From: Rhodanobacter sp. DHB23
GTDB lineage: Bacteria; Pseudomonadota; Gammaproteobacteria; Xanthomonadales; Rhodanobacteraceae
NCBI RefSeq assembly: GCF_014842975.1
Contig: NZ_JACYXK010000027.1
Location: 124,001 to 188,000 of the forward strand
Direction: 5' to 3'
DNA length: 64,000 nt
In this document: positions 27,861 through 28,382 of the stretch, in pieces
Numbering within the stretch: the first letter of the stretch is position 1
Layout: the number at the start of each line of letters is the position of its first letter
Notes under the pieces: generated by a model
Seen by the model: the letters and a program-made list of their open reading frames with translations, nothing else
The model's database searches: none
What the model was told of the DNA's origin: nothing
Program-made: the position numbers and the translations under genes

Positions 27861-28382
27861 TTACTTCTTGGCGGTGGTCTTGACGGCCTTCACCACCTTG
27901 GCGGCGGCAGGCTTCTTCGCAGCAGCCTTCTTGGCTGCCGGCTTCTTGGCAACCTTCTTCACAGCGGCCTTCTTCGCGGCTGCCGGCTTCTTGGCGGCAA
28001 CCTTCTTCACGGCAGCCTTCTTGGCGACCTTCTTCACGGCAGCCTTCTTGACGGCCGGCTTCTTGGCGGCGGCCTTCTTGGCGACCTTCTTCACGGCGGC
28101 CTTCTTGGCAGCCGGCTTCTTTGCAGCGGATTTCTTGGCAGTGGCCATGGTTCGTCTTAGCTCCTCATCGGTTGGCAGTGGTTGCCCAGTAAAAGCGTGG
28201 AGGAACGCCTCAACCAGCAAATCGCTGTTGGTGGCGTGCCTCAAATTCTTCACCTGACGCTCGGTGCGCAGGTCGGACAGCGTTCGCAATACATGGAGCG
28301 GAATCGAAACGGTGATCTTGCGTACTGCGTTCGCTTTCTCGCCGTGCTCCACGTAAGGCGTGATGAATTTCGGTGATGCCAT
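27861..28382 (-). CDS. MetJ-like ribbon-helix-helix domain fused to histone H1-like tail
   Basis: A 173-residue protein in two parts. Residues 1-77 match the methionine repressor MetJ closely: [10 protein letters not shown], the DNA-contacting strand [23 protein letters not shown] and [16 protein letters not shown], with the region that forms the S-adenosylmethionine pocket retained. MetJ normally continues for about 30 more residues; here it is replaced after DEELRR by a Lys/Ala/Pro/Val tail (80-173) of repeated [15 protein letters not shown] units, as in bacterial H1-like proteins. Start at 28382 chosen because GGGGAA precedes it; an ATG at 28397 lacks a ribosome site. Codons at the junction (CTA AGA CGA) are rare here. 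Likely nucleoid-associated; a methionine role is unproven. Confidence 0.82.
27870..28145 (-). repeat. Coding tandem repeats of the H1-like tail
   Basis: Imperfect repeats of units such as AAGAAGGTTGCCAAGAAG-like codon blocks, mostly AAG, GCC and GTG/GTC codons encoding K, A and V. The blocks are similar enough for slippage or recombination, so tail length may vary between strains. Confidence 0.7.

Follow-up and report, generated by a model that had tools for sequence, protein, structure and literature searches.

A MetJ repressor domain with a histone H1-like tail and a probable internal translation start in the Rhodanobacteraceae

A MetJ domain running into a basic tail

In the 64,000-nucleotide stretch of Rhodanobacter sp. 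DHB23 analysed here (contig NZ_JACYXK010000027.1, positions 124,001 to 188,000; hereafter the window), one uninterrupted minus-strand frame encodes a methionine-repressor (MetJ) domain that runs directly into a lysine- and alanine-rich, histone H1-like tail (Table 1). This gene, called metJ-H1 below, has an alternative ATG five codons upstream, at 28397. Residues 1–78 matched the Pfam MetJ family PF01340 with an E value of 1.1e-34 and 118.8 bits (cut-off 25) and the NCBIfam MetJ model NF003622 at 124.6–124.9 bits (cut-off 110), and they could be aligned to residues 5–89 of chain A of the E. coli repressor structure 1cma. A sequence-only reading of the window had recognized a MetJ-like N-terminal part of 77 residues, and these matches bear it out. 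PF01340 had no other match in the window's genome. The tail consists of 39% Lys, 38% Ala, 13% Val and 5% Pro, contains no acidic residue and carries a net charge of +37; in sequence, it occupies the place of the C-terminal helix C of canonical MetJ, which is lacking here. An AlphaFold2 model with 30 close relatives was too poor to use (mean predicted local distance difference test score 50.5, with every residue below 70; predicted template modelling score 0.14), and nothing was drawn from it.

Searched alone, the tail scored 31.0 bits against Pfam HC2 (PF07382; cut-off 40) and 32.4 bits against hist_H1_lk_Burk (NF038053; cut-off 80). It thus shares a Lys/Ala-rich composition and weak profile matches with these H1-like proteins, whereas it stays under both cut-offs and, unlike them, is fused to a member of a sequence-specific repressor family. 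When 20 genomes were searched with HC2, the window's genome gave two matches, metJ-H1 and an 856-residue frame (G000:C19:640203) whose Lys/Ala-rich stretch matched under the cut-off and which is possibly a basic-tailed enzyme.

Table 1. Positions of metJ-H1, its parts and its neighbours in the window
Feature	Position	Strand	Remark
metJ-H1 fusion gene	27861..28382	minus	173 residues plus stop; single uninterrupted frame (translation)
MetJ ribbon-helix-helix domain, residues 1–78	28149..28382	minus	without the canonical C-terminal helix C
H1-like Lys/Ala tail, 95 residues	27861..28148	minus	predicted to be made separately as well, from the internal start
Conserved nucleotide element GCTTTTACTGGGCAACCACTGCCAACYGATGAGGAG..ATG	28146..28196	minus	synonymous sites nearly frozen
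Internal Shine-Dalgarno (SD) sequence GAGGAG	28161..28166	minus	12 nt before the internal ATG
Internal in-frame ATG	28146..28148	minus	ATG in 113/115 loci
Predicted MetJ operator, three tandem met-box-like octamers TTACGTAT GGAAGTCT GGACGTCC	28534..28557	minus	
Promoter-like TTGACA-N17-TAGCTT	28410..28438	minus	
gcvH, glycine cleavage H protein	28962..29357	minus	upstream neighbour; tblastn match in fetched flank, 92/115 loci
gcvT, glycine cleavage T protein	29430..30593	minus	tblastn match in fetched flank, 53/115 loci
TonB-C domain protein	26489..27520	minus	downstream neighbour; tblastn match in fetched flank, 87/115 loci

Distribution of the tailed MetJ

PF01340 was present in all 117 sampled Rhodanobacteraceae genomes and in 26 of 26 genera. 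We read 115 of the 117 loci, leaving out two fragments (G107 and G111); the tests on 113 loci reported below further exclude L016, which is cut, and L083, which has no internal Met. A tail followed the MetJ domain in 114 of the 115 loci, and the remaining one, L016, ends at a contig edge. Because 114 of 115 loci show the MetJ frame entering the basic tail, a sequencing error, frameshift or assembly join as the origin of the tail is ruled out; the frameshift or stop between the two parts that the sequence-only reading had allowed for was found neither here nor in those loci. The junction itself was nearly constant, with TDEELRR or a close variant followed by zero or one residue and then Met in 113 loci, Met being replaced by Val in L083. 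A second set comprised the best 80 of 189 relatives, mostly Rhodanobacter, Dyella, Frateuria and Fulvimonas with some assigned to a higher rank only; one of its loci, L302, is labelled as an unrelated phylum, probably by mislabelling. All 76 complete frames among these 80 loci carried the basic tail, and the other four reach contig ends.

MetJ was found in 53 of 200 genomes sampled across the order, of which 34 belong to the host family, 13 to family f9 and 6 to family f12. The f9 (L116–L128) and f12 (L142–L147) proteins stop a few to about 25 codons past the junction motif; like the MetJ part of metJ-H1 they are short and without helix C, and unlike it they have no tail. Since these proteins lack helix C yet have no tail, the tail is not a simple substitute for that helix. 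The sequence-only reading, in which about 94 residues of Lys/Ala repeats replaced the normal C-terminal helix, was therefore right about the tail (95 residues), whereas the loss of helix C is shared with tail-less relatives. Family f2, which has no MetJ, is presumably Xanthomonadaceae.

Beyond the order, only 2 of 229 genomes in a broad class sample had MetJ, the window's own being one of them. In one MetJ-rich order it occurred in 118 of 148 genomes, and by our own count 100 of the 118 matches extend into helix C, ending at or past profile position 91. Six loci were read there: three, all of family f196, had a different long extension, two had a canonical C terminus, and one was divergent and short. 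The f196 proteins (L319–L321; open frames of 213–218 residues) resemble the fusion in joining a MetJ domain to a long C-terminal extension, but that region of about 130 residues is of different sequence and without Lys/Ala repeats. Outside the host family, none of the loci read had a Lys/Ala tail; in the MetJ-rich order these were 6 of 118. On this sampling, MetJ with an H1-like tail is a conserved feature of the Rhodanobacteraceae and not a general one of the Xanthomonadales; the suggestion that the architecture might be found across that order holds throughout the family and fails beyond it, f9 and f12 being tail-less and no MetJ having been found in the other families sampled from the order.

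The sequence-only reading knew of no description of such an arrangement, and our literature searches on MetJ with an H1-like or lysine-rich tail, which covered few subscription papers, found none for what is a real and conserved architecture. One Rhodanobacter study names MetJ as a putative repressor in a passage that is silent on a tail (PMC12146267).

The conserved junction and a probable internal start

Along the MetJ domain, synonymous drift was ordinary up to residue 62; at residues 63–77 most codons were nearly fixed, and the internal ATG follows one residue later. The frozen codons are GCT TTT ACT GGG CAA CCA CTG CCA ACT GAT GAG GAG CTG AGA CGA, with more variation at GAT, at the second CTG and at CGA. 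Mean pairwise codon identity was 0.85 at residues 63–77 versus 0.50 at residues 9–62, an excess reached in 0 of 100,000 column permutations, and in 200 of 200 resamples with one locus per genus the same stretch had the highest rank. GC content at third codon positions (GC3) was 0.36 in the frozen codons, below the 0.70 of the domain and the 0.80 of the tail. In the tail-less families, by contrast, synonymous sites at the same motif were free: codon identity there was 0.39 versus 0.46 in f9 (13 loci) and 0.57 versus 0.56 in f12 (6 loci), indicating no constraint. The element was present in all 80 loci of the second set and occurs once in the window's genome.

The frozen stretch includes GAGGAG, which lies 12 nt before the internal ATG in 102 loci and 9 nt before it in 11, and the residue after the internal Met is Ala in 111 of 113 loci and Val in two. 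Paired with the anti-SD sequence, the internal SD had duplex energies between −8.1 and −8.6 in each of the 113 loci. Its mean of −8.45 is stronger than that of the annotated start (−5.03) and that of control codons (−2.18, with 6% reaching −6); when 50 control positions per gene were compared, one or more equalled the internal SD in strength in 23 of 113 genes. Folding around the internal ATG was weaker than in the rest of the domain (−5.3 versus −11.0 kcal/mol). L083, the sole complete locus without the internal ATG, has no GAGGAG either, and 10 of its 15 codons in this stretch deviate. A MetJ-domain tree, based on few columns and with open forks, placed L083 within the family, and its loss of the internal start looks, weakly, derived. 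Given the frozen codons, the GAGGAG, the ATG, the pairing energy, the weak folding and the joint loss in L083, metJ-H1 most likely has an internal translation start at the junction. The sequence-only reading had overlooked this conserved ribosome-binding site and start codon.

Several observations weigh against an internal start. The SD-to-ATG spacing of 12 nt exceeds the textbook optimum, and the frozen stretch starts 48 nt before the ATG, farther than an SD accounts for. Furthermore, when the consensus was folded in isolation, the SD paired with the upstream GCUUUU and a small inner hairpin formed, the SD being paired more than in synonymous variants (0.77 versus 0.53). The predicted stem probabilities of the hairpin were far above those of synonymous variants (inner 0.77 versus 0.07, outer 0.32 versus 0.01). 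It was nevertheless rejected as strong in prediction only: covariation was absent, an inner stem pair was broken in 8 of 113 loci, and the outer helix reached a probability of 0.3 in 12 of 25 genera only.

The frozen codons might instead serve the fusion protein alone, as a domain-boundary pause or an mRNA stability element, with the tail raising the affinity of a helix-C-less MetJ and no shorter product being made. Consistent with this, 113 of 113 loci stay in frame, their spacing variants differing by exactly one codon; a TTGACA-N17-TA promoter was found in 115 of 115 regions upstream of metJ, and in the alignment 112 of 115 loci have the first Met; and the frozen codons are AT-rich, as their GC3 of 0.36 against 0.70 attests. 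What it leaves unexplained is the invariance of GAG GAG, which are themselves ordinary codons, the Met in a tail otherwise poor in Met (it is the only one in 81 of 113), and the joint absence of GAGGAG and ATG in L083. We consider this explanation unlikely.

In the −1 frame of the element (28166–28196, minus strand), one peptide is common to 81 of 113 loci. If the element were a recoding signal, a −1 slip on T TTT, reading FYWATTAN up to a stop, would yield a tail-less MetJ beside the fusion. The −1 frame does reach a stop after 8–12 residues in 113 of 113 loci, the frozen third positions begin at the slip codon and span the −1 stretch, and a small hairpin is predicted downstream. However, the T TTT run is lost in 5 of 5 g24 loci, 4 of 5 g13 loci and one g25 locus, the −1 peptide has 17 forms, there is no classical heptamer, and the frozen GAGGAG, ATG and post-stop codons are left unexplained, making recoding very improbable.

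Other candidates for the element were set aside. As a repeated regulatory motif it was rejected because each of the 10 genomes searched contained a single copy, the one at metJ, and only two of them had a further, stray match with three mismatches, one apiece. No overlapping reading frame with a consistent start was seen in 25 one-per-genus loci, and a search for known RNA families gave a single sub-threshold match, located elsewhere. A hammerhead-like CUGAUGA was dismissed by eye, its second core motif being absent and its site variable, as was a sigma-54 or sigma-70 promoter within the element, for which the spacing is wrong.

Predicted operators, the SAM pocket and the favoured reading

The operator predicted before metJ-H1 is the sole tandem site with at most two mismatches in the 64-kb window. 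Allowing up to three mismatches, a met-box site preceded metJ in 97 of 115 loci, its median distance from the start being 173 nt; of the shuffles, 0.6% had such a site. Genome-wide, met boxes were searched with a 16-base tandem pattern at up to one mismatch, with both strands summed, so that palindromic sites were counted twice, and with the reversed pattern as control. This gave 599 matches versus 21 in the control for 34 family genomes, 73 versus 11 for 9 f12 genomes, and 13 versus 107 for 124 genomes of families in which no MetJ was found; the 33 f9 genomes had 16 matches, in 7 genomes. Only among families that possess MetJ were tandem met boxes abundant. Family genomes had 1 to 47 matches each, the window's genome having 24 (9 forward, 15 reverse) versus 0 in the control. 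In f9, where tandem met boxes are rare, four of the 7 genomes have one no farther than about 3–6 kb from metJ, suggesting a very small regulon.

Targets were inspected at 89 chosen site loci from five genomes, four of the family and one of f12. Aspartokinase, MetX and a TonB-dependent receptor were predicted targets in 4 of 4 family genomes, followed by a CysB-like gene with divergent CysG (2 genomes), CysJ (2) and SerA (1). In the single f12 genome, the sites stand before metK, metB, metY and a cysB-like gene, the products being MetK, cystathionine gamma-synthase, MetY and a CysB-like protein. MetX, MetK, CysG, SerA, MetY and cystathionine gamma-synthase passed curated cut-offs and aspartokinase passed a subfamily model; CysJ (its frame cut by the locus end), the CysB-like proteins and the TonB receptor, which is B12-receptor-like, stayed under theirs. 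In L157, a met-box-like tandem adjoins the end of an apparent rplQ gene, named by eye.

Lys23, Thr25, Arg40, Arg43, Gln44, Glu59 and Phe65 (E. coli numbering) were invariant in 115 of 115 loci; Lys23 and Thr25 we take to be the base-reading strand residues. According to a simulation study of MetJ, Arg40 contacts DNA, a Glu59–Arg43 salt bridge joins helices B and A, and the adenosyl group of S-adenosylmethionine (SAM) is strongly partnered by Glu39 and Arg42 (PMC2775130). Glu39 was retained in 86 of 115 loci and Arg42 in 85. By genus, Glu39 was kept in 20 of 26, together with Arg42 in 19, one genus having Glu with His.

Taken together, the predicted operators and regulon support the view that the MetJ part still acts as a sequence-specific methionine and sulfur regulator. 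Compared with E. coli MetJ (PDB 1cma, 1cmc, 1mj2; PF01340; NF003622), the Rhodanobacter protein exceeds the curated cut-offs, conserves the DNA-reading strand, and shares tandem 8-bp met boxes and methionine-pathway targets, both as predicted here; it differs in having no helix C, in its Lys/Ala tail and probable internal start, in its residues 39 and 42, and in the position of its own operator. The last two differences weigh against reading metJ-H1 as such a regulator, as do some further results. In the window, the operator is not placed over the promoter but about 95 bp farther upstream, counted from the −35 box. The 18 of 115 loci without a site at up to three mismatches make up the whole of genera g3, g11 and g18 (g11 and g18 accounting for 16). 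Met boxes without a MetJ match occurred in f12 genomes G163, G169 and G181 (77–86% complete) and in f9 genomes G225 and G265. Since 32 of the 89 inspected sites were flagged deep within reading frames, many met-box sites may be non-regulatory. Finally, the window protein has Leu39 and Glu42, and in six genera, including the window's, Glu39 is replaced by Leu, with Arg42 replaced by Glu, His, Tyr or Ser.

Because Glu39 and Arg42 are Leu and Glu in the window protein, SAM sensing is not to be assumed. Of the SAM-sensing, sequence-specific fold proposed by the sequence-only reading, the specific half is supported by the DNA-reading residues, the met boxes and the predicted regulon, whereas the sensing half is put in doubt by the replacements. 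Since the pair is replaced, yet Glu59 and Arg43 are invariant and the predicted regulon persists in two lineages with the replacement (G000 and G018), specific DNA binding looks retained and the SAM response may differ in this lineage. The same reading had gone on to suggest that chromosome compaction could respond to methyl-donor supply, which would mean a SAM-gated chromatin protein in which SAM binding switches genome-wide compaction. Retention of Glu39 in 20 of 26 genera, and of the pair in 19, would suit this proposal. However, the pair is replaced in the window's own lineage, with Leu39 accompanied by Glu or Tyr at position 42 in genus g1, and the strong met-box matches of the window's genome (9 on the forward strand, 15 on the reverse) suit a regulon better than a coat, so that we give the proposal little credence.

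Palindromes were also noted. Between gcvH and metJ-H1, at 28857–28884, a palindrome surrounds CATGGCAAATGGACGTCCATTTGCCATG, with the core TGGACGTCCA; it might be of the extragenic type or else a MetJ site with one box. In several genera (L025, L026, L097 and other loci), the met-box site some 170 nt before metJ lies within a longer palindrome, whose arms vary between genera yet look complementary by eye.

We favour, as probable, the reading that metJ of the Rhodanobacteraceae encodes a MetJ repressor with a tail and, in addition, that tail as a protein of its own. The full-length protein would dimerise through the MetJ domain, read tandem met boxes before methionine, sulfur and related genes and before its own gene, and repress them, its basic tail making further, non-specific contacts with DNA by which binding is strengthened or spread. 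Ribosomes would also initiate at the internal GAGGAG..ATG, releasing a free 95-residue H1-like protein that would bind DNA, or another polyanion, without sequence choice; both products coming from one mRNA, their amounts would be linked. On sequence grounds, the way in which the MetJ part works is well supported and the internal start strongly supported; repression, the existence of two products and DNA binding by the tail we infer. A more tentative extension, which we regard as possible though doubtful, is that the one mRNA, in giving rise to the repressor-tail fusion and the free H1-like protein, ties nucleoid coating to methyl-donor regulation, an occupied operator lowering both products and the conserved, possibly structured junction element gating their ratio.

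The target of the tail could also be something other than DNA. Like the KPAA tails of Pseudomonas AlgP and PhaF, it might tether the protein to another polyanion or body such as polyphosphate, RNA or a membrane, rather than coat DNA. Those proteins, which likewise carry a basic low-complexity C-terminal tail on another module, set a precedent for such attachments; AlgP sits at polyphosphate granules and needs its C terminus for granule spacing (PMC9239181), and both KPAA tails are thought to connect granules with the nucleoid. The composition of the metJ-H1 tail, which fits H1-like proteins generally, would suit such a tether. The described roles of AlgP and PhaF, however, are in granule positioning, and the N-terminal part of AlgP is alpha-helical and not MetJ (PMC9239181), whereas the partner domain here belongs to a DNA-binding family. 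A tether of this kind seems rather improbable.

MetJ thus occurs in 117 of 117 genomes of a large Xanthomonadales family, with a predicted methionine and sulfur regulon, whereas two papers place it elsewhere: the relevant part of Leyn 2014 lists no MetJ regulon for its four Xanthomonadales genomes (PMC4239095), and a passage of a Xanthomonas campestris study calls metJ missing (PMC6230763). The Rhodanobacteraceae protein is a conserved MetJ variant, undescribed in the literature searched, that probably comes with a second product. To our knowledge, this is the first metabolite-responsive repressor to carry an H1-like tail across a whole bacterial family. The probable internal start predicts two products from one gene, and metJ-H1 would offer a system in which specific DNA binding may be separated from non-specific binding.
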